Source: Blautia sp. (GTDB taxonomy: Bacteria > Bacillota > Clostridia > Lachnospirales > Lachnospiraceae). Taken from it: DNA of 64,000 nucleotides. Shown piece by piece: positions 4,735 through 21,908 of this stretch (positions are counted from its first letter, which is position 1; every line of letters begins with the position of its first letter). The position numbers and the translations under genes were made by a program. The DNA lies in assembly GCA_022770365.1 (NCBI GenBank), contig JALEHU010000108.1:1-64000 (forward strand), written 5' to 3'. The notes under the pieces are model-generated. The model was given only the letters and a program-made list of their open reading frames with translations, did not search any database and was not told the DNA's origin.

Positions 4735-6785
4735 GATGATTTTCCTCCTCGTTTTGATGTATCCGGTTTTTTGTAGAACTGAGCCGCAGCATCAAAATAC
4801 TGGCGCAGCATATAGGTATTGCTGCTTGCCTCCACCTGATTGGTACGTACCCGTACAAAATGCTCCAGCTTATCCATATACTCCCGGGATGTGATAGTCC
4901 CTTCTGCCACATAATTCAGTCCCTTTTCCCAGCTTGCTGTCAGTTCCGGATTCAGAAGCTGACGGATCGAGCAGTTCACCACATCAAAAATCATTTCTCC
5001 CAGAAGTGTCGGTGTGATCACCTGAGTCTTCTTATTCAGGGACAGATATTTGATAGTAAAAAGCTTCTTCAGTATTTCTGCCCTTGTAGCACTGGTGCCG
5101 ATACCGCATCCTTTGATCTGGGCACGGAGCTCCTCATCCTCAATGAGCTGTCCCGCGTTTTCCATGGCAAGAATCATGGAACCGGAATTATAACGCTTGG
5201 GAGGGGATGTTTCCCCTTCTCTGATGCTCAGACCGTCTACAGGAAGTATATCATTCTTTTTCAGTTTCTGCAATGCAGTCAGCAGAATCGTATCACATGC
5301 AACCTCTGTGTCCTCCCCGTCCTTATCGTTATCAGAAATCTTCCCCTCTGATGCCTTCTTTTTTGCAAAAGAATTGGCTGCAATTTTCAGGTATCCTTCT
5401 TCCTGAAGCACCTTAAAGGAAGAAAAGAACGATTCCTCCTGCATTTTTACCACCAGGCTCACTTTCTGATAAACAGCCGGCGGATAAAAAATACACAGAA
5501 ATCTCCTCACAATGGTCTCATAAACTCTCTGAGACGTCTGGGAAAGGCTGTTAAGAGCATTCAGTCCCTGTCCTGTAGGGATGATCGCATAATGGTCTGT
5601 GATCTGTTTATCATTGACATATCGTGTTTTTGCAATATTTTTATAAGAACCCATCTGCAGCACTTCTGCAGCTGCATCTCCTGCCTGGGCATAATTTCGA
5701 AGACCGGAAATATTCTTGTAGATTTCCTTTGCCACGGCAGTAGACAACACGCGGGCATCTGTTCTGGGATATGTCACCAGTTTTTTCTCATAAAGTTCCT
5801 GTACAATCCGCAGAGTTTCATCAGGACTGATCTTGAACAGCTTCGAGCACACATTCTGAAGCTCCGCCAGGTTGAACAGAAGCGGCGGATTTTTGTTTTC
5901 TTTTTTTCGCTCTATTTTTTCCACCCGGCATGCAAGGGGCTGGTCTGCACTCAGCATATCAATCAGTTCCTGCGCATGTTCTTTTTTCTTAAAGCCGTTT
6001 TCTTTATACAGATGAGGGGACTGGAAATATTTACTGCCGGATACGGCACGCCATTCGCCCTCAAAGTTTTCTCCTTCCAATGTAATCCCGGCAATCACAC
6101 GGTAAAAAGGTGTTTTCACAAAAGAGCGGATTTCCCGTTCTCTGCGCACCACCATTCCCAGAACGCAGGTCATCACACGCCCCACAGAAATTGCCTGGTA
6201 TTTCGTATTCAGATAGCTGGAAACACTATTTCCGTAGCGAAGAGTCAGAACCCGGGAAAAATTTATTCCCATGAGATAATCTTCCTTCGCCCTCAGATAA
6301 GCGGATGCGGAAAGATTATCATACGCGGAAAGGTCTTTGGCTTCCCGGATTCCCCGGAGGATTTCTTCTTCTGTCTGGGAATCAATCCAGACACGTTTCT
6401 GTTTTTTGTTCTTAACTCCCGCCTCCTGTGCCACAAGGCGGTAAATGTATTCTCCCTCACGTCCGGAGTCGGTACACACATAGATGGTTTCCACATCCGG
6501 CCGGTTCAGCAGTCCTTTCACAATTTCGAACTGTTTCTGAACTCCCGGAATGACTTCATACTTAAATTCGCGCGGTAAAAAAGGCAGGGTATCAAAACTC
6601 CACCTTTTGTATTTCATATCATATTTTTCCGGATAACTCATGGTGACCAGGTGCCCTACGCACCAGGTCACCACACAGTCCTCTGATTCCAGATATCCGT
6701 CCCTTCTTTGCCCATTAATTTTCAGCGCCTTCGCAAACTCCTGCGCAACACTGGGTTTTTCTGCTATGTATAAGGATTTTCCCAT
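4731..6785 (-). CDS. topB: DNA topoisomerase III (type IA)
   Basis: 684 residues. A Toprim domain opens with AEKPSVA (8-14) and continues with TDSGREGE (105-112); the Gly in place of the second Asp is also found in Bacillus TopB-type enzymes. The catalytic tyrosine is Y339 in TYPRTDAR. The zinc-finger tail of topoisomerase I is absent, which favours TopB. It relaxes and decatenates DNA by single-strand passage. Its start overlaps the stop of the channel gene (TAATG) and its stop overlaps the next start (ATGA), so three unrelated genes form one transcript. Confidence 0.92.
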   Translation of the reverse strand: MGKSLYIAEKPSVAQEFAKALKINGQRRDGYLESEDCVVTWCVGHLVTMSYPEKYDMKYKRWSFDTLPFLPREFKYEVIPGVQKQFEIVKGLLNRPDVETIYVCTDSGREGEYIYRLVAQEAGVKNKKQKRVWIDSQTEEEILRGIREAKDLSAYDNLSASAYLRAKEDYLMGINFSRVLTLRYGNSVSSYLNTKYQAISVGRVMTCVLGMVVRREREIRSFVKTPFYRVIAGITLEGENFEGEWRAVSGSKYFQSPHLYKENGFKKKEHAQELIDMLSADQPLACRVEKIERKKENKNPPLLFNLAELQNVCSKLFKISPDETLRIVQELYEKKLVTYPRTDARVLSTAVAKEIYKNISGLRNYAQAGDAAAEVLQMGSYKNIAKTRYVNDKQITDHYAIIPTGQGLNALNSLSQTSQRVYETIVRRFLCIFYPPAVYQKVSLVVKMQEESFFSSFKVLQEEGYLKIAANSFAKKKASEGKISDNDKDGEDTEVACDTILLTALQKLKKNDILPVDGLSIREGETSPPKRYNSGSMILAMENAGQLIEDEELRAQIKGCGIGTSATRAEILKKLFTIKYLSLNKKTQVITPTLLGEMIFDVVNCSIRQLLNPELTASWEKGLNYVAEGTITSREYMDKLEHFVRVRTNQVEASSNTYMLRQYFDAAAQFYKKPDTSKRGGKSS

Positions 6786-7540
6786 TATTCATCCGCACTC
6801 ATCTTTCTTAAGGGCCATGCAAGAAGAAAAGCACCGCCTATTATATTTCCTAATGTTACTACCACCATACTTTTCAGCATAGCAGTTACAGATAATCCCG
6901 GCACCAGACAATATGCAGTTACGAAAATTCCCATATTGGCAATACAGTGCTCAAATCCACTAATTACAAATCCTGCAATACAGAAAACAATCATGATAAT
7001 TTTGCCGCTTTCCGTCTTGAGCTTAATTCCGCACAAAACAGCGAGACATACAAAGAAGTTACAAAGAACTGCTCTGAAGAACATCTCAGTTAAGCTTAAG
7101 GACAACTTGTTTCCAATAAATCCGCCAAAATAATCTGCGGTTCCTGCCCCTCCAGCCCATACAAAAAGCAGAGCCAGAATAAAACAACCGACAAAATTTC
7201 CTGCGTAACTTACAAGCCACACCTTTCCAACCTGTTTCCAGCTCACCTTATGGTCATAGGCGCCAAAGGCAAGTACCATATTATTACCGGTAAAAAGTTC
7301 CCCACCTACCATAATAATTAAAAGTACTGCAATGGAGAAAACAACCGCACTCAAAAATTTTCCCATAGCCGGGTCAATCTGTGAAAAAACATTGCCGGTA
7401 ACATTGCTGAATATCATGGCTACAACAATAAAGAAACCTGCCATAATAGACCGCATAAAATACTTGAAAAAGTCTTTTTCCAGTAAATTTGCTTTATTTA
7501 CCGCAGCATTTGATATTTTTTGCACATCTTCGTAGTTCAT
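6785..7540 (-). CDS. Formate/nitrite transporter family channel
   Basis: 251 residues with six predicted membrane helices. Motifs typical of the FNT family are present: GGELFTGNN (80-88), which forms the first half-helix, and SGFEHCIANM (196-205), whose His gates substrate release in FocA. The family conducts formate, nitrite or hydrosulfide. The neighbourhood (selenocysteine genes and formate dehydrogenase within 10 kb) suggests formate. It starts at an ATG after AGGTAGG. It is transcribed away from the fdh operon from its own promoter, so any link to formate metabolism is by proximity only. Confidence 0.88.
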   Translation of the reverse strand: MNYEDVQKISNAAVNKANLLEKDFFKYFMRSIMAGFFIVVAMIFSNVTGNVFSQIDPAMGKFLSAVVFSIAVLLIIMVGGELFTGNNMVLAFGAYDHKVSWKQVGKVWLVSYAGNFVGCFILALLFVWAGGAGTADYFGGFIGNKLSLSLTEMFFRAVLCNFFVCLAVLCGIKLKTESGKIIMIVFCIAGFVISGFEHCIANMGIFVTAYCLVPGLSVTAMLKSMVVVTLGNIIGGAFLLAWPLRKMSADE

Positions 7541-7754: not shown

Positions 7755-9269
7755 CTAGTATGTTATATGGGCGTGGTTGGGTAACTGGTGTGCCCCCTGG
7801 TCTTCAAAACCTGTGTTGGGCGTTAATCGCGTCCTGGGTGGGTTCGATTCCCACACACGCTCGCCAGAAAATGATTCCCCAAGTAACATCGTCAATTCAC
7901 ATTTCAATTCGTGTACTTCTCCGGCTGTTACCGTTCGCATATCAAACCAGACTCTTCCATTTTTTGTATAGGCGATCACCGGTACAGACATCTTGCGCAT
8001 TCTTTCTGCCATTTCATCACATGACATCCCTGCAGGTTTTATTGTAACCGCAAAACTAGGTATTTCCTCGGCCGGAAGAGAACCTCCGCCCATCATAGAA
8101 ATACTTGGCTCCACTGCAAATTCACCGGAAACCCCTGTGTTTTTCAGTGCTGCGCAGAGTTCCTGAGCCTGCTGTTTCAGTTCATCAGACTTCCGTGAAA
8201 GCATCCACAGAACCGGTATATGCTCAATAGCATTATTTTCATTTAAATATTCCCGAAAAGTAGCTGTCAATGCTGCAATGGTACACTTATCCAGACGAAG
8301 CGCACGCATCAGGGGATGCTTCAGCATTTCATTTATATATTTCTGCTTTCCAGTTATGATACCTGCCTGTGGACCGCCAAGAAGCTTATCGCCGGAAAAA
8401 GTAACAATGTCCGCTCCCTTTTTAAGCATTTCCTGAACCGTTGGCTCATGGGCAAGACCGAACTGCTCCAGGTTTACAAGAACACCGCTGCCTGCATCCA
8501 CCAGAACCGGAAGGTGATATTTTTCTCCCAGTTCGACCAATTCTTCAATAGATGTTTCTTCTGTAAAACCAATGATTTTATAATTGCTGGTATGGACCTT
8601 CAGGAGTGCTCCCGTTTCCTCTGTTATTGCCTCCTCATAATCAGAAATTCTCGTACGGTTTGTGGTTCCAACCTCTCGAAGCCGTGCACCGCTTTGCTCC
8701 ATGACCTCCGGAATCCGAAAATGTCCGCCGATTTCTATCAGTTCCCCTCTGGATACGATTACCTCCTTGCCCTTTGTAAGTGCGCTTAACATCAGAGTAA
8801 CAGCTGCAGCATTATTATTGACCGCTGCAGCCCCTTCTGCACCAGTTACACTTGCAATTAGGTCTGCATAATGCTCCCAGCGTTTTCCTCTTTTCCCGGT
8901 CTCAGTATCATACTCCAGATTGGTATATCCTCCCATTGTTTGAAAAAGCGCCTCTCCCTGAAGATTTCCAAGAGGTGCTCTTCCAAGATTCGTATGGAGT
9001 ATAATGCCTGTCGCATTAATGACCTTTCGAAGGGGGAAACGGGAAGCTTCTTCAATTTTCCCCGGCAGTTCTTCTGTAAATCTTTCAAATTCGTCTGTAA
9101 TCTCTTCTTCTGTCCCTGTGCGAACCAGAGCGCGCAGATGATCCAGTTCTTCACGAATGGCTTCTGTCACACTCCCTTTTCCGTAGATTCTGCACAATGC
9201 CTGAATTCTCTCTTCTTTCAAAAGAGTGTCTACTTTTGGTATATTTTTAAAATAATAATTTTTATTCAT
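7755..9269 (-). CDS. selA: L-seryl-tRNA(Sec) selenium transferase
   Basis: SelA converts seryl-tRNA-Sec to selenocysteinyl-tRNA using selenophosphate and PLP. The PLP lysine motif SGDKLLGGPQAG is present near residue 295, and HTNLGRAPL and NNNAAAV occur in the N-terminal half. The frame is 504 residues, against about 463 in E. coli. The family-like part ends near ELTMLLGES; the last 38 or so residues translate the antisense of the tRNA-Sec gene, and the stop comes 14 bp beyond the tRNA. The start ATG lies 7 bp after the selD stop with only a weak Shine-Dalgarno, so coupling to selD is likely. Confidence 0.93.
   Translation of the reverse strand: MNKNYYFKNIPKVDTLLKEERIQALCRIYGKGSVTEAIREELDHLRALVRTGTEEEITDEFERFTEELPGKIEEASRFPLRKVINATGIILHTNLGRAPLGNLQGEALFQTMGGYTNLEYDTETGKRGKRWEHYADLIASVTGAEGAAAVNNNAAAVTLMLSALTKGKEVIVSRGELIEIGGHFRIPEVMEQSGARLREVGTTNRTRISDYEEAITEETGALLKVHTSNYKIIGFTEETSIEELVELGEKYHLPVLVDAGSGVLVNLEQFGLAHEPTVQEMLKKGADIVTFSGDKLLGGPQAGIITGKQKYINEMLKHPLMRALRLDKCTIAALTATFREYLNENNAIEHIPVLWMLSRKSDELKQQAQELCAALKNTGVSGEFAVEPSISMMGGGSLPAEEIPSFAVTIKPAGMSCDEMAERMRKMSVPVIAYTKNGRVWFDMRTVTAGEVHELKCELTMLLGESFSGERVWESNPPRTRLTPNTGFEDQGAHQLPNHAHITY
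7769..7866 (+). tRNA. selC: tRNA-Sec (anticodon TCA)
   Basis: 98 nt including an encoded CCA. The anticodon loop is CTTCAAA, giving anticodon UCA to read UGA. The D stem is GGGTA/TGCCC, the long variable arm pairs GGGCG with CGTCC, and the T arm is GTGGG-TTCGATT-CCCAC. G before CCA is the G73 expected of tRNA-Sec. The acceptor pairs GGGCGTG with CACGCTC (one G-U); an eighth pair would be G-A. The anticodon stem has one T-T mismatch. It lies within the 3' end of the opposite-strand selA reading frame. It serves the two UGA codons seen in selD and fdhF. Confidence 0.93.
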
Positions 9270-12353: not shown

Positions 12354-12423
12354 AAGAACTCTCCTGATTCTCGGACATGCAAAACGCCGATAATAGAGCG
12401 GGGATCAGGCGCACATAACGAAA

Positions 12424-12457
12424 GATGCTGTAAAACCTCAGGCGACTTTACAGCATC
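12424..12457 (-). terminator. Hairpin ending the mobA-fdh-hydrogenase operon
   Basis: An 11-bp stem GATGCTGTAAA/TTTACAGCATC (12424-12434 with 12447-12457) lies 15 bp after the ferredoxin stop. On the minus strand it is followed only by TTTC, a weak U tract, so termination may be partial. On the plus strand it is followed by TTTTC. Confidence 0.6.
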
Positions 12458-12471
12458 TTTTCTGTTAACCA

Positions 12472-12642
12472 TTAAAATTCATCAATTGCCTTATTTGGAC
12501 AAACATCTATACAATTCCCGCATTCCAGACATTTTCTGTAATCAATACTGAATTTCTTTTCTTCTTCTATGATTGCCATGTTTGGACATTCAGACTCACA
12601 TGCACCACATTTTACACAGCGTTCTGTTATCACATAACCCAT
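12472..12642 (-). CDS. Small 2x[4Fe-4S] ferredoxin
   Basis: 56 residues with two complete clusters: C9-x2-C12-x2-C15-x3-C19-P and C38-x2-C41-x2-C44-x3-C48-P. This is the standard clostridial ferredoxin pattern. The start ATG (12642-12640) is preceded by AAGGTGA. It lies 37 bp after the second hydrogenase and is the last gene of the operon, so it is a natural electron carrier between the formate dehydrogenase and the hydrogenases. That pairing is inferred from position. It is easily missed because of its length. Confidence 0.92.
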   Translation of the reverse strand: MGYVITERCVKCGACESECPNMAIIEEEKKFSIDYRKCLECGNCIDVCPNKAIDEF

Positions 12643-12679
12643 ATTCTCTCACCTTGCCTTTCCGGACATTTTGCCTTTC

Positions 12680-14443
12680 CTACTCCACCTCATTAGTGCG
12701 GTCCACGTATGTGGTATGCAGCAGATGATGGGATAAATGTCCGCACGGTTCTTCCAGATAGTCCCTGTAAAGCTCCTGAACCTGTGTGTTTTCATGAGAT
12801 CTGCGAACAGGATTCTTCTCATCGCTCTCGTACATCTTTACCATACGGTCTGCCACCTGATCAGGTGAAGATAATAACGGAGCACCGCCTCCATTTAAGC
12901 ATCCGCCAGGGCACGCCATAACTTCAATAAAGTGATATGGGGATTTTCCTGCACGAACATCATCCATAACTGCTTTGACATTACCAATACCGTTTACAAT
13001 GGCAACTTTTACTTCCAATTCGCCGATGGTAAGAGATGCCTCTTTCACACCTCTGTAACCGCGGGCTGCATGATAATCCAACTGATCCACTTTACCGCCG
13101 GTCAGCTTATAGACCACAGTACGCAGAGCAGCTTCCATTACACCACCAGTGGTGCCAAAAATACGCGCAGCTCCGGTTCCTTCACCCATAAAACTATCAA
13201 ACTTTTCGTCATTCAATGTCGCGAGATTAATGCCACGTAATTTAAACAGTTTTGCTGCTTCTCTTGTGGTGAGAACGATATCTACATCCCGGCCATTTTC
13301 ACTTTCCATTTCAGGTCTGTTGTGCTCATATTTCTTTGCAACACATGGCATAATTGAAATATGACAGATTTTCTCTGCCGGCACACCGATCTTACCGGGA
13401 AGATAATTCTTCACAAGAGCACCAAACATCTGCTGAGGAGATTTACAGGAAGACAAATGATCCAACTGATCCGGATAGTTATATTCCATATATTTAATCC
13501 ATCCCGGACAACAGGATGTCATCATCGGAAGAACACCGCCATTGGTCACACGGTCGATAAACTCTGTTCCCTCTTCCATAATCGTAACGTCAGCGCTGAA
13601 ATCAGTGGTAAATGCATATCCCCCGAGTTTCTTCATAGCTGCCGCAATCTTACCGGTCACATCAGTACCAGGTGCCATACAGAATTCCTCACCTAATGTA
13701 TTCTGAATTGCCGGTGCCATCTGCCATACAACCGTTGTTTCCGGATCATCTAAAGCCGCTAAAGCTTTGTGGATACTGTCTTTTTCCGAAAGTGCCCCTA
13801 CCGGGCAGACTTTTACACACTGACCGCAGTTAATACATGCGGTTGCAGACAATCCAACATTTTTCTTTGTATTGACATAACGTTCTCCCGTTGCATCATT
13901 GCATTTCATTTCGTAAATGCCAATCTTCTGAACTTCATTACATACGGTCACGCAGCGTCCGCAGGCAATACATTTATCCATATCACGAATCATGGCAGGA
14001 CTGGAATCATCAATTCCTCTTCCAGGCATAGTGCGTTTTGCCGGATTTACTCCCAGAATCTGGGAAACAATCTGGAGCTGGCAATTTCCTCCTGTTTTCT
14101 GACAGGTAAGACAATCATTCGGATGTTTCCTGAGAATTTCTGTTAATCGGGCTTTTCTAAACTCAAGAACCTTCGGCGTATTGGTATGTATTACCATACC
14201 GTCCCTCGCACGTACGCGGCATGCCCTGCGTATAATACGTCCCTCCTCTTCTTCAATCTCAACAGCGCAGATACCGCATGCACCGGTTGGAGTAAGACCT
14301 TTAAGATAACACAGTGTAGGTATTTCAATACCTGCTGATCTGGCAGCCTCTAAAATTGTAGATTCAGGTGGACAGCAAACTTTCTGACCGTTAATTGTAC
14401 AAACAATGTCTTCTTTTAATAATCCGCCATATACTTCATACAT
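12680..14443 (-). CDS. [FeFe] hydrogenase, CpI-like (M3 type), copy 2
   Basis: 587 residues. In order: N-terminal [2Fe-2S] domain (CYLKGLTPTGACGIC), His-ligated [4Fe-4S] (HPNDCLTC...CQLQ), two [4Fe-4S] clusters (CIACGRCVTVC, CINCGQCVKVC), then the H-cluster domain with TSCCPGW, MPCVAKKYE and EVMACPGGC. All H-cluster cysteines are present, so it should be active if the HydEFG maturases are encoded elsewhere. The ATG at 14443 follows GAAGGAGG; the frame extends 9 codons further but without a ribosome site. It is a tandem paralogue of the next gene, by eye largely identical in the H-domain. Confidence 0.93.
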   Translation of the reverse strand: MYEVYGGLLKEDIVCTINGQKVCCPPESTILEAARSAGIEIPTLCYLKGLTPTGACGICAVEIEEEEGRIIRRACRVRARDGMVIHTNTPKVLEFRKARLTEILRKHPNDCLTCQKTGGNCQLQIVSQILGVNPAKRTMPGRGIDDSSPAMIRDMDKCIACGRCVTVCNEVQKIGIYEMKCNDATGERYVNTKKNVGLSATACINCGQCVKVCPVGALSEKDSIHKALAALDDPETTVVWQMAPAIQNTLGEEFCMAPGTDVTGKIAAAMKKLGGYAFTTDFSADVTIMEEGTEFIDRVTNGGVLPMMTSCCPGWIKYMEYNYPDQLDHLSSCKSPQQMFGALVKNYLPGKIGVPAEKICHISIMPCVAKKYEHNRPEMESENGRDVDIVLTTREAAKLFKLRGINLATLNDEKFDSFMGEGTGAARIFGTTGGVMEAALRTVVYKLTGGKVDQLDYHAARGYRGVKEASLTIGELEVKVAIVNGIGNVKAVMDDVRAGKSPYHFIEVMACPGGCLNGGGAPLLSSPDQVADRMVKMYESDEKNPVRRSHENTQVQELYRDYLEEPCGHLSHHLLHTTYVDRTNEVE

Positions 14444-14473
14444 AATAAACGACCTCCTTCTTATATTCACACA

Positions 14474-14504
14474 GCTGTCCCGCAGAGAAAAAATGCGGAA
14501 CAGC
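14474..14504 (-). repeat. Intergenic hairpin between the two hydrogenase genes
   Basis: GCTGTTCCGCA pairs with TGCGGGACAGC (11 bp with one G-U; 14504-14494 with 14484-14474) around a 9-nt T-rich loop. No U tract follows, so it is more likely an RNA-processing or stability element than a terminator. Confidence 0.55.
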
Positions 14505-14515
14505 CACTATATTAT

Positions 14516-16279
14516 TTATTTTACTTCTCCGCTGCGGTCCGTATAAGCTGTATGCAGCAGATGATGAGATACATGTCCGCATGGTTCTTTCAAAAATTCT
14601 TCATACAGCATCTCAATTTCTTTGTTTTCATGAGACCTGCGGACAGGATTATTGGCATCACTCGCATACATTTTCTCCATACGTTCCGCCACTTTTGCAG
14701 GTTCTTTCAAAAGAGGTGCTCCGCCGCCGTTCAGACAGCCGCCGGGACATGCCATAACCTCTATAAAATGATAGGGTGACTTTCCGGCACGGACATCTTC
14801 CATTACCGCTTTCACATTACCGATACCGTTTACAATGGCAACCCGCACCTCTAAACCATCAATATTCAGAGTGGCTTCTTTGACCCCTTTGTAGCCTCTG
14901 GCTGCTTTATAATCGATCTGGTCAAGCTTTCCTTCTGTCAGTTTCCATACAACCGTACGAATTGCCGCTTCCATAACGCCTCCGGTTGTTCCGAAAATAC
15001 GTGCGGCGCCTGTTCCCTCTCCCATAAAGGAATCAAACGGCTCTTCAGAGATTTTTGAAAGATCAATGTTTTTCAGACGGAAAAGTCTGGCTGCTTCTCT
15101 TGTTGTCAGAACTGCATCCACATCTCTTCCCTGTTCACTTTCCATCTCCGTTCTTGTTCTCTCAAATTTCTTAGCCACACAAGGCATAATAGATACATGG
15201 AAAATATTTTCTGCCGGAATTCCGATTTTCGCCGGCAGATAGTTCTTAACAATTGCTCCGAACATCTGTTGAGGTGATTTACAGGAGGACAGATGATCCA
15301 GCTGATCCGGATAATTATACTCCATGTACTTGATCCAGCCTGGACAGCAGGATGTCATCATAGGAAGCACCCCTCCATTTTTCACACGGTCAATGAACTC
15401 TGTACCCTCTTCCATAATTGTCAGGTCAGCACTGAAGTCAGTTGTAAATGCATACCCTCCAAGTCTTTTCATTGCCGCCGCAATTTTTCCGGTAACATCA
15501 GTACCCGGTGCAAATCCAAATTCCTCACCAAGTGTATTCTGAATGGCAGGTGCCATCTGCCACACAACCGTTGTATGCGGATCTTCCAGCGCATCCATTA
15601 CTTTACGGATACTGCTCTTCTCTGTAATCGCTGCAACAGGACAGACTTTTACACACTGTCCGCAGTTGATACAGGCAGTTTCTGACAAATTCACATCTTT
15701 TTTTGTATTTACATATCGGTCGCCTGTCACAGGATCGTATTTCATTTCATAAATGCCGATCTTCTGAACCTCATTACATACATTTACACATCTTCCGCAG
15801 GCAATACATTTATCCATATCACGAATCATAGCAGGACTGGAATCATCCAGACCTTTTCTCCGGACATTTCTCACCTCAGGATTGATTTCAAACAAATGTG
15901 TTACTTCCTGGAGCTGGCAGTGACCATTCGTTTTTGGACAGGTAAGGCAGTCGTTTGGATGCTTTTCAAGAATCTCTCGAATTCTTTCTTCTCTGTATGC
16001 ACGAACTGCAGGAGTATCCGTATGCACGATCATACCATCTTTTGCACGATATCGGCATGCACGCCGGATCACATTACCGCCGTCCCGTTCGATTTCAACA
16101 GCACAGACACCGCATGCTCCGGTAGGTGTTAAGCCTTTCAGATAACATAATGTAGGTATCTCAATTCCAGCTGATTTTGCTGCGTCCAGAATGGAGTAAT
16201 CCGGAGGACATACAATCTTTTTGTCATCAATGATAATACGGATTTCCTCTTTCTGCACACCACCATATACTTCATACAT
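14516..16279 (-). CDS. [FeFe] hydrogenase, CpI-like (M3 type), copy 1
   Basis: 588 residues with the same architecture as its tandem partner: [2Fe-2S], His/Cys3 [4Fe-4S] (HPNDCLTCPKTNGHC), two [4Fe-4S] and an H-cluster domain with TSCCPGW, MPCVAKKFE and EVMACPGGC. It catalyses 2H+ + 2e- = H2 with ferredoxin-type donors. No NuoE/NuoF-like diaphorase subunits lie in this operon, so electron bifurcation with NADH is not supported here. The ATG at 16279 has AAGGA 9 nt upstream; an ATG three codons earlier is too close to it. It lies 24 bp after fdhF. Confidence 0.93.
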   Translation of the reverse strand: MYEVYGGVQKEEIRIIIDDKKIVCPPDYSILDAAKSAGIEIPTLCYLKGLTPTGACGVCAVEIERDGGNVIRRACRYRAKDGMIVHTDTPAVRAYREERIREILEKHPNDCLTCPKTNGHCQLQEVTHLFEINPEVRNVRRKGLDDSSPAMIRDMDKCIACGRCVNVCNEVQKIGIYEMKYDPVTGDRYVNTKKDVNLSETACINCGQCVKVCPVAAITEKSSIRKVMDALEDPHTTVVWQMAPAIQNTLGEEFGFAPGTDVTGKIAAAMKRLGGYAFTTDFSADLTIMEEGTEFIDRVKNGGVLPMMTSCCPGWIKYMEYNYPDQLDHLSSCKSPQQMFGAIVKNYLPAKIGIPAENIFHVSIMPCVAKKFERTRTEMESEQGRDVDAVLTTREAARLFRLKNIDLSKISEEPFDSFMGEGTGAARIFGTTGGVMEAAIRTVVWKLTEGKLDQIDYKAARGYKGVKEATLNIDGLEVRVAIVNGIGNVKAVMEDVRAGKSPYHFIEVMACPGGCLNGGGAPLLKEPAKVAERMEKMYASDANNPVRRSHENKEIEMLYEEFLKEPCGHVSHHLLHTAYTDRSGEVK

Positions 16280-16303
16280 AGTTTTCATTCCTTTCGTACA
16301 GAA

Positions 16304-19174
16304 TCATTCATTCGTATATACAGAAGCTTCCTCCGCCTCCCTTGCGGCAATCAGCTCTTCCACTGTATGTTCTTTGTGACGAATGCTCTTCGGATCCTCA
16401 TTCATATAATAATCAATTTCATTTTGCTGTGCTTTTCGGGTAAGTTCTTCTGCTTTATCCGCATCTACCTTCTCAATCTTCACTCCCACCTGTTTATACC
16501 CCGGAATCTTACTGATCGGGTCGAGATGATGTGCATCTGTCAGAAGGTTGGCACCTGCCGCATAGTGGAACGGCATCCATACAACTCCATTCTGCAGGGT
16601 ATCTACAATACGCACCTCTACGTAAGTTTCACCTCTGGGTGAAGATACTTTTACCCATTCACCCTCCTGGAGTTTCATTTCCAGTGCATCCTCACGATTA
16701 ACCTCCAGCCAGTTTCTCGGAGCTGTGAAGTGAACCGCACGGGTTCTGTCTGTCTGCGTCCTTGTATGATAATGATAGAGAATACGGCAAGTGGTAAGAG
16801 TAATCGGATACTCCGGATTTCCGGCTTCAGGTGACGGTTTCCATTCCAGTGTTTTAAGAAGACCGACTCCGCCTTTTCTGGACGGTCCGTTCACATGCAG
16901 AATCGGTGTTCCCGGATGGTCTTCTGTGGGACATGGCCACTGAACTCCCTGTCCGTCTTTTTCAATTTTTGCATATGTGATACCGGCATAGGAAGGCGTA
17001 ACTGTTCTCATCTCATTAAAAATATCCTCTGCTGTATCATAATGACACTGATAACCAATACGATTCATAATCTGCATCAGAATCCACCAGTCATCTCTGC
17101 TTTCGCCTTTCACTGCTGCAATCTTTCTGACTCTCTGTACACGACGTTCTGTATTAGAGAATGTACCGTCCTTCTCCGCAAATGCAGTAGACGGAAATAC
17201 TACATCCGCAAATGCAGAAGTTTCGTTAAGGAAAATATCCTGCATTACAACAAACGCTTTCTCCAATGCATGTTCTACATGAGCAGTATCAGGATCTGAA
17301 ACAGCCGGGTTTTCACCCATGATGTACAGAAGTTTTACTTTATCTTCAAGAATTGCAGGAACAGTTTCTGTAACAGTATAACCTTTGTTCGGATTCAGCT
17401 TTACGCCCCATGCATTTTCAAATTTCTCCTGTACATTGGGATCAAATACTTTCTGATATCCGGGATAGTCTGTGGGCAGAGCTCCCATATCACAGGCACC
17501 CTGAACATTATTCTGGCCGCGAAGGGGATTCACACCATTTCCTTTTCGTCCAAGATTACCTGTAACAAGTGCCAGGTTACTTAAACTCATAACATTATCT
17601 GTACCGTTAACATGCTGAGTAATTCCCATTGCATATGCAATATAGGATTTATGGGTTCCGGCATACAGTCTTGCTGCCTCAATGATCTTTTCTTTATCCA
17701 CACCACAGATTTCAGCCACACGCTCCGGTGTATAATCTTTCACAAACTCACGAAGTTCTTCAATACCTTCTGTATGTTTTTCAATATATTCTTTATCTTC
17801 CAGACCTTCTTCAAAAATGACATTCAGCATACCATTGCTGAGAGCGACACTAGTACCAGGATTGATCTGCAGATACACATCTGCAATGTCCGCAAGAGGA
17901 ATGCGGACCGGATCGGCAACGATTATCTTCTTGCCCATCCTGTGTGCCTGACGCACATACATTCCCATAACAGGGTGTGCTTCAGACGTATTAGAGCCCG
18001 TAATGAAAATTACGTCTGCGTCTTTAATCTCTGTCACGCAGTTTGTCATAGCCCCGCTTCCTAACGTAGTTGCTAACCCGGCAACTGTGGAGCTATGTCA
18101 GAGTCGGGCGCAGTGATCGACATTGTTGGTGCCTACACCTGCGCGGAGAAACTTCTGGAACAAATAGTTATCTTCATTGACGGTACGGGCTGATGAGAAA
18201 CCGGCAATCGCATCTGGTCCATATGTATCCTTGATTTCAAGAATCTTGCCTGCAACCAGGTCCAGGGCCTCATCCCAGGAAGATTCCACAAGTTTACCAT
18301 TCTTACGGATCATTGGATATTTCAGGCGGTCTTTATGATTAATGAAATCATAGGCAAATTTGCCTTTTACACAGAGCAATCCCTGATTAGACGGGCCATT
18401 GGCTGGTTTTGCATCCACAAGTATTCCATCTTTTACAGAGAATTCAATCTGGCAGCCTACGCCGCAGTAGGCACAGGTAGTCTGAACTTTCTTTGTCTCC
18501 CATTCTCTGAAATCATTCTGAGATTTAGGCATCAGAGCACCAACCGGACAGACAGATACACAATTTCCGCAGGAAACACACGCAGTTTCTGCCATTGTCT
18601 CTCCACCGTTCGGAATCACATACGCAACATTTCCCTTCTGAGCCATTGCAAGTGCATTCACTCCCACCAGTTCGCGACATGTTCTCACACATTTTCCGCA
18701 GCGTATACATTTATCCATCTCCTGAAAATAGAAGCGGTTGGACATGTCTTTTTCACGGTGTTCATAGGGAATCACATACTGGGGATCCTTCACTCCATAC
18801 ATTTCACAATATTTCTGCAATTTGCAGGCACCCAGTTTTTTACAGTTCACGCAGTCCAGCGGATGTGTTGCAATCATCCGATTGAGAACACTGACACGGG
18901 CTTTTTTCACTTCCGGAGACTCAGTCCACACAACCATCCCCTCTTTTGCAGGGGTATTACATGCTGTCAACAGACTGACTTCCCCTTCAACCTCGCAGGA
19001 ACACATTTTGCAGTCACCATATTCATTACAGTTGCTGCAATGCTTTGCAGGCATCCTTTCCAGATCATCAAAGCAGAATGTGGGAATAAAAATTCCCAGT
19101 TTTTTCGCAGCCTGTAATATGGTGCTGCCTTCTTCCACTTCGACAACCCTGTTATTAATTTTCAGCGTTATCAT
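16304..19174 (-). CDS. fdhF: Formate dehydrogenase catalytic subunit, selenocysteine-containing, with NuoG-like N-terminus
   Basis: 956 residues read through one in-frame UGA (18100-18098) at position 359. The context CARL-U-HSSTVAGLATTLGSGAM is the Sec active site of FdhF-type enzymes. N-terminal electron-transfer module: [2Fe-2S] region, H104/C108/C111/C117 [4Fe-4S], then C156-C166 and C199-C209 clusters. The molybdopterin domain begins with C234-AYCGVGC and C268. It interconverts formate and CO2 on a Mo/W-bis-MGD cofactor. ATG is preceded by GGAGGAAAATA. Read without recoding it appears as two fragments (358 and 581 residues), which is not a real frameshift. mobA and fdhD upstream supply and sulfurate the cofactor. 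Confidence 0.96.
18068..18100 (-). promoter_or_regulatory. Sec UGA codon and SECIS hairpin of fdhF
   Basis: Eleven nucleotides after the UGA (18100-18098) the mRNA forms a perfect 6-bp stem AGUUGC/GCAACU (18086-18081 with 18073-18068) with a 7-nt loop CGGGUUA containing GGU. This is the size, distance and loop G/U content expected of a bacterial SECIS bound by SelB. Confidence 0.88.
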
Positions 19175-19211
19175 TATTTTCCTCCTTTTATATTTCAGCG
19201 CTTTTAAACGC

Positions 19212-19847
19212 TTATTCTTTTAATGAAACCAATCCTTCATGGTAAATGTTTCCGGCTCCTTTTCTGATGAAGCCTAACAGCGTAACGTTCTCCTTTTTTG
19301 CAAGAGTCACTGCACTGCCTGTCACTGCTGCCCTGGATACCACTATCTTAAAACCGGCATCAATGGCCTTCTGAAGATAGTCCTTTGATATCCTCCCGCT
19401 GCTGAAGACAACACATTTCGGAATCGGGATCTGATGCTTCAAAGCATATCCGATAACTTTATCCAATGCATTATGCCTTCCGATATCTTCAACAGAAAAA
19501 AGAACCTTTCCATCCATTACCAGAACACAACTGTGAGCGCATCCTGTATCTTTAAAAAGAGATCCCGGATTTTCAAACATGCTGCCTGCGATGCGGAAAA
19601 TATCTTCCAGCTTCACATAAGTTAATGGCACTGATTCTCCGATTCCAAGATCTTGCTTTGTCAGATCTCCAAGTGAAAAGCGGCGTCCCAGAATCATTTC
19701 TTCCAAATATGCCGGTGTACATGTTACAGAAACTCTTTTGCCATTTTTCAGATCAAAATCCATCTGATACTCAATTGCCACTTCATCTTCTTTATCTGTT
19801 ATTTTTCCATCTTTAATCTTTCGAATCGTTATTGTTTCTTTTTCCAT
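19212..19847 (-). CDS. fdhD: Formate dehydrogenase accessory sulfurtransferase
   Basis: 211 residues. FdhD passes sulfur from a cysteine desulfurase to the Mo-bis-MGD cofactor, which formate dehydrogenase needs for activity. The family motifs GCAHSC, EDIGRHNALDKVIG and SSGRISKDYLQKA are clear. The usual two-cysteine CxxC loop is represented here by one Cys in GCAHSC (two Cys three residues apart). It lies 37 bp before fdhF and 26 bp after mobA in the riboswitch-controlled operon. Confidence 0.94.
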   Translation of the reverse strand: MEKETITIRKIKDGKITDKEDEVAIEYQMDFDLKNGKRVSVTCTPAYLEEMILGRRFSLGDLTKQDLGIGESVPLTYVKLEDIFRIAGSMFENPGSLFKDTGCAHSCVLVMDGKVLFSVEDIGRHNALDKVIGYALKHQIPIPKCVVFSSGRISKDYLQKAIDAGFKIVVSRAAVTGSAVTLAKKENVTLLGFIRKGAGNIYHEGLVSLKE

Positions 19848-19873
19848 AGTATTACCATTCCTGTAATGCCTTC

Positions 19874-20488
19874 CTACGCCTTCGGTTCCTTCTCTGAGCT
19901 TCGCAAAAGGGCTTCATAGAGTTCCGGCGTATTCACATTTATGATCTGCTGTCCAGAAATTTCTTTCCGAAAGCATTCATACCCCCATCTGTCAAGCACA
20001 CGGAACACCGGTGCTGAATGTTCTCTGATCAAATTCTCAATGGTGTCTGCCATTGCCACCGGATAAACGGCAATCAAAGGCTCTTTTCTATCTCCATGCT
20101 CCCATATCAATGGTATCTCCTTCGTTCCGTTGATTCCTTCCCGATATTTTTCGTGGTAGACTAGAAGAGACTCCAGTATTTCCCGGGGAAGCTTTGGAGC
20201 ATCCACCGGAAGCACAAGACAGAATGGCGTCTTAATCACCTTCATGCAGGCATGGATACCTCCAAGAGGACCTCTGTCCGGATACTGATCCCACACGGTA
20301 TGTATATTTTCTCCACACTCCTGAAATCCGGATATATAAATCTGGTCAATTCCCAGATCTCTGGCTTTACTTATGAGAAGCTGTGTAAAGGTCTTTCCTT
20401 CATAGTAAAGCTCCGCTTTATTCTTTCCTATCCTTGAACTTTTTCCGCCGGCCAGAAGCAGAAGCGAGTAATTATTCTTTCTGATCAT
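19874..20488 (-). CDS. mobA: Molybdenum cofactor guanylyltransferase
   Basis: 204 residues. The N-terminal nucleotide loop LLAGGKSSRIGKNKAEL (15-31) and DRGPLGGIHA and PVDAPKLP motifs identify MobA, which adds GMP to molybdopterin to make the bis-MGD form used by formate dehydrogenase. AGGGGA precedes the ATG. It is the first gene after the ZTP riboswitch leader, so the switch controls cofactor assembly and enzyme together. Confidence 0.92.
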   Translation of the reverse strand: MIRKNNYSLLLLAGGKSSRIGKNKAELYYEGKTFTQLLISKARDLGIDQIYISGFQECGENIHTVWDQYPDRGPLGGIHACMKVIKTPFCLVLPVDAPKLPREILESLLVYHEKYREGINGTKEIPLIWEHGDRKEPLIAVYPVAMADTIENLIREHSAPVFRVLDRWGYECFRKEISGQQIINVNTPELYEALLRSSEKEPKA

Positions 20489-20517: not shown

Positions 20518-20555
20518 AAAAAGGGCAGCATTTGTCTTTTTCACAAATGTTGCCC
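20518..20555 (-). terminator. Intrinsic terminator of the ZTP riboswitch expression platform
   Basis: Stem GGGCAACATTTGT with ACAAATGCTGCCC (20555-20543 with 20535-20523; one A-C mismatch) followed by U5 (20522-20518). Its first strand reuses the GGGC that closes P3 of the aptamer, so ligand binding and terminator formation exclude each other. Confidence 0.9.
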
Positions 20556-20627
20556 AGACGGTCGGCTTGCCTGCAAACCTGATTTCCCTGTGGGACTCCA
20601 CATCTAACCGTCAGTTGTCAGATTTGC
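20552..20627 (-). ncRNA. ZTP (pfl) riboswitch aptamer
   Basis: RNA order: P1 5' strand GCAAAUCUGA (20627-20618); conserved ACUGACGG, whose GACGG (20612-20608) can pair with CCGUC in the P3 loop as the pseudoknot; P2 UGUGG/CCACA (20602-20589); junction GGGAAA; P1 3' strand UCAGGUUUGC (20582-20573), ten pairs with one G-U; then P3 GCC-GACCGUCU-GGGC (20566-20552). The 3' block matches the invariant part of known pfl RNAs such as that of Clostridium beijerinckii. ZTP/ZMP accumulates when 10-formyl-THF is short. The overlap with the terminator predicts ligand-induced expression. Confidence 0.9.
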
Positions 20628-20642
20628 TTTAGTTACAGTTTT

Positions 20643-20671
20643 AACATACCATTTTTTATAACTTTTGTCAA
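20643..20671 (-). promoter_or_regulatory. Promoter of the mobA-fdhD-fdhF-hydrogenase operon
   Basis: TTGACA (20671-20666), 17-bp spacer, TATGTT (20648-20643) on the minus strand. Transcription would begin about 20636, just ahead of the riboswitch P1 helix. Confidence 0.88.
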
Positions 20672-20756: not shown

Positions 20757-21842
20757 TTATTTAGGCTGGATAAATCCTTTCGCTTTCAGAGTCTCTGCGC
20801 AGAGAACAGCTCCGCCTGCAGCACCTCTGACGGTATTATGGGAAAGTCCGACAAATTTAAAATCATAAACGGTATCTTCACGAAGACGTCCGATGGAAAC
20901 GCCCATTCCTCTCTCATAGTTTACATCTTCGGTAACCTGAGGACGGTTGTCTTCCTCCAGATACTGGATAAACTGCTTCGGTGCACTTGGAAGTTCCAGT
21001 TCCTGCGGAACTCCGCGGAAATCTTTCAGTGCCTGGATCAGCTGTTCTTTTGTCGGTTTTTTACGGAATTTAACAAATACGGCTGCGGTATGTCCGTTCA
21101 GTACCGGAACACGGATACACTGGCAGGTGATCACCGGCTCTGTTGCAGGAACGATCACGCCGTCTTCAATCTTGCCCCACAGTCTCAGCGGTTCTTTCTC
21201 GCTCTTCTCTTCCTCGCCGCCGATATACGGGATGATGTTGTGTTCCATCTCCGGCCAGTCTTTGAAGGTCTTGCCTGCACCGGAAATTGCCTGATAAGTA
21301 GTTGCAACTACTTCGTACGGCTCAAATTCCTTCCATGCTGTCAGAACCGGTGCATAGCTCTGAATAGAGCAGTTCGGTTTTACAGCGATGAATCCGCGGG
21401 TAGTTCCCAGACGTTTTTTCTGATACTGGATCACATCAAAGTGCTCCGGATTGATTTCCGGCACTACCATCGGAACATCCGGTGTCCATCTGTGTGCACT
21501 GTTATTAGAAACAACCGGTGTCTCAGTCTTGGCGTATTCTTCCTCAATCGCCTTGATCTCATCCTTGGACATATCTACTGCGGAAAATACGAAATCTACA
21601 GTTGCAGCAACCTTTTCTACTTCATTGACATTCATGACAACGATTTTTTTCACTGCTTCCGGCATCGGGGTGTCCATTTTCCATCTTGCACCTACCGCTT
21701 CTTCGTAGGTCTTGCCTGCACTTCTTGCACTTGCTGCAAGAGTTACAACCTCAAACCACGGATGATTCTCAAGAAGAGAAATGAATCTCTGTCCTACCAT
21801 ACCGGTAGCTCCCAAAATACCAACTCTCAGTTTCTCACTCAT
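20757..21842 (-). CDS. asd: Aspartate-semialdehyde dehydrogenase
   Basis: 361 residues. It reduces aspartyl phosphate to the semialdehyde feeding lysine, threonine and methionine synthesis. GILGATGMVGQRF (NADP loop) opens the protein, the catalytic cysteine is in NCSIQSY, and the acid/base region RVPVLNGHTA follows. The NCSIQSY form is that of the archaeal/fungal-like Asd type also found in Clostridia. The ATG at 21842 follows GAGGAG; the frame extends 17 codons upstream but overlaps the promoter leader. It stands alone as a single-gene unit. Confidence 0.93.
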   Translation of the reverse strand: MSEKLRVGILGATGMVGQRFISLLENHPWFEVVTLAASARSAGKTYEEAVGARWKMDTPMPEAVKKIVVMNVNEVEKVAATVDFVFSAVDMSKDEIKAIEEEYAKTETPVVSNNSAHRWTPDVPMVVPEINPEHFDVIQYQKKRLGTTRGFIAVKPNCSIQSYAPVLTAWKEFEPYEVVATTYQAISGAGKTFKDWPEMEHNIIPYIGGEEEKSEKEPLRLWGKIEDGVIVPATEPVITCQCIRVPVLNGHTAAVFVKFRKKPTKEQLIQALKDFRGVPQELELPSAPKQFIQYLEEDNRPQVTEDVNYERGMGVSIGRLREDTVYDFKFVGLSHNTVRGAAGGAVLCAETLKAKGFIQPK

Positions 21843-21908
21843 AATACTTGACTCCTCACTTTTCTGTTTTATGTGTCGTTGTATGGCACACATTTGTCGT
21901 TCTTGTAA

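Follow-up and report, generated by a model that had tools for sequence, protein, structure and literature searches.

We analyzed a stretch of 64,000 nucleotides from a Blautia sp. contig, called the window below; its source genome comprises 3.0 Mb in 130 contigs and is 85% complete. Between positions 12472 and 20488, all on the minus strand, lie six genes in the order mobA, fdhD, formate dehydrogenase (FDH), hydA, hydA, and ferredoxin, preceded by a leader of the ZTP riboswitch class. The features of the leader and operon are as follows.

20643-20671, minus strand: sigma-70-type promoter-like site, TTGACA-17-TATGTT with TG before the second hexamer (consensus scan)
20545-20628, minus strand: ZMP-ZTP (pfl) riboswitch aptamer (full RF01750 model, cores, P1)
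20518-20555, minus strand: predicted intrinsic terminator, the transcriptional expression platform (sequence and fold)
19874-20488, minus strand: MobA-like molybdenum cofactor guanylyltransferase, 204 aa (TIGR02665, PF12804)
19212-19847, minus strand: FdhD sulfurtransferase, 211 aa, with a divergent N-terminal half (TIGR00129, PF02634)
16304-19174, minus strand: selenocysteine FDH with a NuoG-like N-terminal Fe-S region (TIGR01591)
14516-16288, minus strand: [FeFe] hydrogenase group A, copy 1, 590 aa (TIGR02512, 498.9 bits)
12680-14470, minus strand: [FeFe] hydrogenase group A, copy 2, 596 aa (TIGR02512, 492.9 bits)
12472-12642, minus strand: ferredoxin, 56 aa, two 4Fe-4S motifs, final gene (NF058577, 72.4 bits; cut-off, 65)
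12421-12460, minus strand: long inverted repeat 3' of the ferredoxin gene (found by eye; unlisted by the terminator scan)

The leader RNA and its operon

Rfam cmscan of the 64-kb window placed RF01750 at 20545-20628 (minus strand) with 58.4 bits over model positions 1 to 86 of 86 (gathering cut-off, 39 bits). The E value was 6.5e-7 for the window against all 4227 Rfam families and 7.2e-9 for RF01750 alone against the whole source genome. An earlier note, made from the sequence alone, had proposed a complete pfl/ZTP aptamer with P1, a GACGG-CCGUC pseudoknot, and P3, to be checked by an Infernal search with the Rfam model; the significant, full-length match confirms it. The core motifs ACUGACGG and CCGACCGUCUGGGC were both found in the leader, and in a 31-row alignment most columns of the cores (ACTGACGG and CCGACCGTCTGGGC) were invariant, the rest being mostly conserved at 90% or above. 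P1 is a 10-bp helix (20627-20618 with 20582-20573), and, as read from the sequence, GACGG of junction 1/2 is complementary to CCGTC (CCGUC) in the P3 loop. The aptamer lies 56 bases upstream of the mobA-like gene.

The 5' foot of the terminator hairpin is the GGGC of P3 (20555-20552), the T run lies at 20522-20518, and the 74-base stretch holding the terminator had a predicted fold of -17.6 kcal/mol. A simple terminator scan missed this hairpin (20518-20555), probably owing to an internal mismatch in the stem. Because the terminator overlaps P3, the leader is supported as a transcriptional ON switch in which the predicted terminator would compete with P3. This layout is that of ZTP ON switches in the portions consulted of two studies: in C. 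beijerinckii, P3 and the pseudoknot withstand an invader strand only when ligand is bound (PMC10085676), and the switch of T. carboxydivorans turns genes on (PMC7337938). The ZTP switches on pfl and fhs have the same aptamer, cores, pseudoknot complement, and P3-overlapping terminator as the window leader; the RNA is thus an ordinary member of its class, and the novelty lies in the target operon.

The promoter-like site is weak taken alone, because such sites were common in the 13.5-kb stretch scanned (39, versus 26.4 in shuffles); the leaders of two genomes of the genus, G010 and G002 (Blautia sp. An249), hold a block resembling it. A terminator-like hairpin at 20737-20710 lies beyond the end of the upstream gene, aspartate-semialdehyde dehydrogenase (20757-21893, 491.8 bits), so that the leader seems to start its own unit. 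The coordinates and leader anatomy given in the earlier note were correct, including the promoter (with the reservation just given) and the terminator sharing GGGC with P3, which agrees with both sequence and fold prediction. Its assignment of a ZTP-class, ON-type platform ahead of an FDH-hydrogenase operon is likewise supported by the RF01750 match, the promoter and terminator scan, and the fold.

Profile matches also bore out the described gene content of mobA, fdhD, selenocysteine FDH, two hydrogenases, and a ferredoxin. The FDH alpha subunit scored 848 bits with TIGR01591 (cut-off, 666.25) and has an in-frame UGA at 18100-18098, where the FDHs of G002, G010, G012 (Candidatus Blautia intestinigallinarum), and G824 (a gut metagenome-assembled genome [MAG]) have Cys. 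FdhD scored 143.3 bits with TIGR00129 (cut-off, 140.9), and its PF02634 match begins at profile position 106. The MobA-like protein scored 70.9 bits with TIGR02665, below the equivalog cut-off of 151.85, and 90.2 bits with the domain model PF12804 (cut-off, 27). The TIGR02512 cut-off for the two hydrogenases was 405.95 bits; with the group A6 model they scored 756.6 and 751.3 bits (cut-off, 765), and the PDB relatives of copy 1 were HydA1 and CpI. The inverted repeat at 12460-12421 is probably the end of the unit, and a separate promoter-like site (12353-12325) precedes selB beyond it; together these give a unit of ∼8.1 kb, the length claimed earlier.

Outside the operon and adjoining it are selB, selD, selA, tRNA-Sec (plus strand), and an FNT-family channel gene. 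The channel gene (6785-7540, minus strand) lies just past the selenium genes and has no ZTP match before it. The tRNA-Sec (7769-7866, plus strand) lies antisense within the 3' end of the selA frame (7755-9269, minus strand), and selA extends ∼45 codons beyond its profile-matching part, through the tRNA-Sec complement.

Hydrogen-dependent CO2 reductase (HDCR) comprises FdhF, HycB-type electron-transfer subunits, and HydA2 in one gene set. The window operon resembles it in that FDH and [FeFe] hydrogenase share an operon and the FDH domain matches HDCR FdhF (7qv7_S, E 2e-207), but the window FDH has a NuoG-like N-terminal extension, and hydrogenase copy 1 (590 aa), the copy compared, scored 547 bits with the bifurcating HydA1 (571 aa) versus 379 with HydA2 (461 aa). 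Within the operon (12421-20488), there was no HycB-like gene, only the 56-aa ferredoxin, and no HydB or HydC of the electron-bifurcating HydABC. We therefore rejected HDCR membership on operon composition (no HycB-like gene; copy 1 nearer HydA1/CpI than HydA2). In other Blautia and Lachnospiraceae, operons with an N-extended FDH encode enzymes of ∼900 aa that are 47 to 50% identical to the window's; unlike the window, several have NuoE/NuoF-like genes beside FDH, as judged by eye, and those scanned had no ZTP leader.

ZTP targets in the genome, the genus, and wider samples

The source genome has three ZTP matches, ahead of fhs, of the IMP cyclohydrolase and AICAR formyltransferase pair, and of the mobA-FDH operon. 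Across the genus, 52 of 64 genomes had RF01750 matches, 94 altogether. We called the target of all 94 as the first of nine reference proteins within ≤1.2 kb from the match onward. The IMP cyclohydrolase/AICAR formyltransferase pair came first after 46 matches (46 of the 52 match-bearing genomes have it as a target) and fhs after 43; the remaining five led an FNT channel (G002, G012, and G061) or mobA or mobA-fdhD (the source genome and G010).

Since FNT genes occur in 52 of the 64 genus genomes and are ZTP led in three, a ZTP-led FNT gene is an exception. The three ZTP-led channels, which differ in this leader from the window's own channel at 6785-7540, belong to PF01226. They scored 160.4, 149.4, and 144.4 bits against a FocA cut-off of 290.1 and also fell under the cut-off of the FNT subfamily model, so formate is no more than a putative substrate for them. 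The window FDH was matched in 24 of 64 genus genomes at E 1e-100, which makes FDH an optional module in the genus. All four genus genomes with a close FDH (82 to 100% identical) have a ZTP match on the FDH operon or on an FNT channel, compared with 1 of the 60 others (Fisher P = 7.9e-6, uncorrected for relatedness). That one genome, G061, has a ZTP-led FNT channel without a close FDH, and we rejected the idea that the third kind of ZTP site is restricted to FDH genomes.

ZTP switches are reported to answer ZMP/ZTP, a sign of 10-formyl-tetrahydrofolate (10-formyl-THF) shortage (PMC7266159, in part). The targets named in the excerpts consulted of PMC2864571 are purH, fhs, pfl, glyA, folD, other purine steps, and metH, and an FDH-hydrogenase operon with cofactor genes is unlike them. 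In the literature searched, mostly titles and the beginnings of abstracts, neither a ZTP-led FDH-hydrogenase operon nor a ZTP-led FNT channel was described; the target list of the 2015 paper on the class (Kim et al., Mol Cell) might include such cases. The parts consulted of papers on riboswitches of acetogens and FDH, supplements aside, name cobalamin, Moco, FMN, c-di-GMP, and glycine riboswitches and not ZTP.

Beyond the genus, the link is rare. In a sample of 392 genomes of the order, 22 had an FDH match at E 1e-230, and the 20 FDH regions taken (excluding those of the source genome and G313) contained no convincing ZTP match, the best being a partial one of 17.3 bits. In a sample of 391 genomes of the class, 44 had FdhD at E 1e-20. 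We ran RF01750 with stricter filters on the 43 of these other than the source genome plus four added FDH genomes (47 in total). Nine of the 47, or 6 of the 43 from the class sample, had a ZTP match anywhere in the genome. None of the 43 had one near fdhD, though contig breaks could hide a few. In G156, G815, and G246, a ZTP match was on the same contig as fdhD or FDH yet >600 kb apart. Both samples thus led us to reject a broad ZTP-FDH association.

Conservation, decay, and absence of the leader

The ZTP-mobA-fdhD-FDH arrangement was also found in G010, of the same genus, and in two other gut MAGs. G010 has the ZTP match, a fused mobA-fdhD, a Cys-FDH, and hydA. G824 (L086, "Bacillota bacterium" from water deer rectum) has ZTP, mobA, fdhD, FDH, and hydA, and its second ZTP match tops fhs. 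In G826 (L149/L089, "Oscillospiraceae bacterium" from sheep colon), selB (by eye), tRNA-Sec, ZTP, and a fused mobA-fdhD share one contig, and a selenocysteine FDH and hydA lie on a separate contig that begins inside FDH; we infer that the two contigs meet. The fusion of mobA and fdhD was seen in G010 (L062 8641-9903), G012 (L064 15012-16283), and G826 (L149 1627-2847), with Pfam confirmation in G826 only; the two genes are separate in the window, G002, and G824.

In two relatives the leader is altered or missing. The FDH-operon leader of G002 aligns with that of G010 across promoter, aptamer, and terminator, with the aptamer part 67% identical (score of 28.5 versus ≤7.0 in 1000 letter shuffles). 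However, its core residues are altered: the Rfam search gave no RF01750 match in this leader, and it reached only 15.4 bits with R1, a model built here that we used as a detector only because its RNAalifold structure was poor (13 pairs). Judging by these alignments, the G002 aptamer is decayed and its putative promoter and terminator are kept. In G012, nine bases separate mobA from the preceding frame, so the operon has no leader there. A side match in G012 was to the molybdenum riboswitch RF01055, on its FDH contig (L082); we rejected adjacency to this riboswitch, as the window has no RF01055 match. The leaderless operon of G012 and the decayed leader of G002 indicate that the switch is dispensable.

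Such decay and absence are what one would expect of a relic that travels with the operon and has no regulatory effect. Against this, four separate genomes (the window's, G010, G824, and G826) keep intact cores, the pseudoknot complement, and a P1 whose sequence differs between them and still pairs in all, and a terminator hairpin formed from the P3 strand was predicted in all three leaders folded (window, G010, and G824). We consider a relic very unlikely.

A switch serving the molybdenum cofactor gene mobA rather than formate would be consistent with mobA opening the operon in each of the four intact cases. In all four, however, fdhD (separate or fused) and then FDH follow, in G826 to the extent visible from its fragmented contigs. 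No cofactor gene other than mobA was present among the 94 genus targets, and raising GTP use during a purine shortage would be illogical. On these grounds a mobA-directed switch is scarcely credible.

In a tree of 13 FDHs, those of the window, L081, G012, G824, G010, and G002 clustered (support, 93/96) next to three FDHs without ZTP, with G826 and L087 outside; G824 is a long branch and G826 a partial sequence in this tree. Two histories would fit: an old leader with occasional losses, or a leader that moves together with the operon. L084, L085, and G445 have no mobA directly 5' of FDH, and their genomes have no ZTP match; the L081 and L087 contigs are too short to show a leader. In G445 (L127 1-16676), several membrane proteins that by eye resemble antiporter/Nuo-type subunits precede a selenocysteine FDH and two hydrogenases, an arrangement that suggests a putative membrane-linked FDH-hydrogenase complex.

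The genomes of L081 and L087 carry ZTP matches elsewhere. G821, the genome of L081, whose FDH is the closest to the window's (91% identical), has a sole ZTP match found (L147 1495-1574, plus strand), and it tops purC (124.8 bits, below the cut-off of 189.9). A MAG with a related FDH, G825 (the genome of L087), has its sole ZTP match found ahead of a partial pyruvate formate-lyase gene (TIGR01255, 713.9 bits over 500 residues).

Probable formate supply under one-carbon shortage

We put at about 0.7 the probability that a standard transcriptional ZTP-class ON riboswitch controls a formate-supply operon here. When 10-formyl-THF runs short, ZMP/ZTP would rise and bind the aptamer, a ligand response expected of the class. 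The bound aptamer would keep P3 and the pseudoknot and block the terminator, and RNA polymerase would then transcribe mobA-fdhD-FDH-hydA-hydA-ferredoxin. The selenocysteine FDH would be matured by the products of the cofactor genes and may, together with the hydrogenases and ferredoxin, reduce CO2 to formate; both this direction and the physical coupling are presumed, and the gene content suggests H2 as the donor and ferredoxin as the link. Fhs, under its own ZTP switch, would load the formate onto THF, and AICAR formyltransferase, under the third, would consume 10-formyl-THF along with ZMP.

Because FDHs are reversible, the direction is a deduction, and the FDH operon counts as one-carbon supply only if the enzyme runs toward formate. 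That direction fits ZTP control, since formate oxidation would worsen a 10-formyl-THF shortage and CO2 reduction would relieve it. FDH and hydrogenase pairs can, however, run either way, and the opposite direction would serve formate venting: with THF short, uncharged formate would build up, and ZTP would switch on FDH and hydrogenase to turn it into CO2 and H2, while the relatives' FNT channel would export it. In this regard, E. coli FocA is reported to carry formate both ways (PMC8914244, in part). Other ZTP targets, in contrast, produce formate or put it to use and do not dispose of it: fhs follows 43 of the 94 genus matches, pyruvate formate-lyase is the target in G825, and both belong to the known ZTP regulon in the portions consulted of PMC2864571. 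Further, we found no pyruvate formate-lyase that could yield excess formate in G010 (98% complete), nor one in G012 (75% complete), only 4-hydroxyphenylacetate decarboxylases. With no such match, FDH is the only nameable formate source in G010. We regard venting as improbable.

The source genome encodes an acetyl-CoA synthase homologue (PF03598), as do G002, G010, and G012. It also encodes a split pyruvate formate-lyase, with the glycyl-radical part in a small ORF of its own. This split was seen in the source genome and G002 (L097 950-1195 and 1279-3408; L104 3959-4201 and 1847-3931): the large ORF matches to position 665 to 670 of the 744-position profile, and the neighboring ORF of 80 to 81 aa is the glycyl-radical domain. 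Given both enzymes, the FDH probably also serves in acetogenesis and is not the sole formate source, and since pyruvate formate-lyase is encoded, formate in the source genome need not derive from CO2.

The operon could also be read as serving mainly acetogenic catabolism, with the ZTP leader tuning Wood-Ljungdahl capacity and purine supply as a secondary matter. The acetyl-CoA synthase genes fit such a reading, as does fhs, also a Wood-Ljungdahl enzyme, after 43 of the 94 matches; in the FDH-less Blautia luti, pyruvate formate-lyase is reported to supply the formate for this pathway (PMC12773636, in part). Yet 18 of the 20 genus genomes with both FDH (E 1e-100) and acetyl-CoA synthase matches have no ZTP match on the FDH unit, and the AICAR formyltransferase pair is a target in 46 of 52 genomes. 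A mainly catabolic role of the operon appears unlikely to us.

Returning to formate supply, the earlier note's reading that the enzyme set runs toward formate is partly supported, by indirect evidence: the ZTP sites on fhs and AICAR formyltransferase, the ZTP-led FNT channels, the pyruvate formate-lyase of G825, and the lack of that enzyme in G010. Because ZTP in relatives leads an FNT channel or pyruvate formate-lyase instead, the formate sources seem exchangeable. A broader proposal, to which we give even odds, is that ZTP governs a formate-supply regulon with exchangeable members (pyruvate formate-lyase, a CO2-reducing FDH/[FeFe]-hydrogenase, and a formate channel), in which the energy-linked conversion of CO2 to formate by some gut acetogens would be switched on by a biosynthetic one-carbon shortage. 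In An249, whose sensor is decayed and whose terminator is kept, the FDH operon would then be locked mostly off and a ZTP-led channel would have replaced it.

These results suggest that a gut acetogen, a relative of Blautia, makes extra formate from CO2 when purine building blocks are scarce. If true, the first step of acetogenic CO2 reduction would be tied to an anabolic alarmone, and the timing of formate production from CO2 and H2 by gut acetogens would become accessible to simple genetics. The relatives form a natural series (leader intact, leader decayed, with a ZTP-led channel, and with ZTP on pyruvate formate-lyase), which makes the hypothesis directly testable in isolates.
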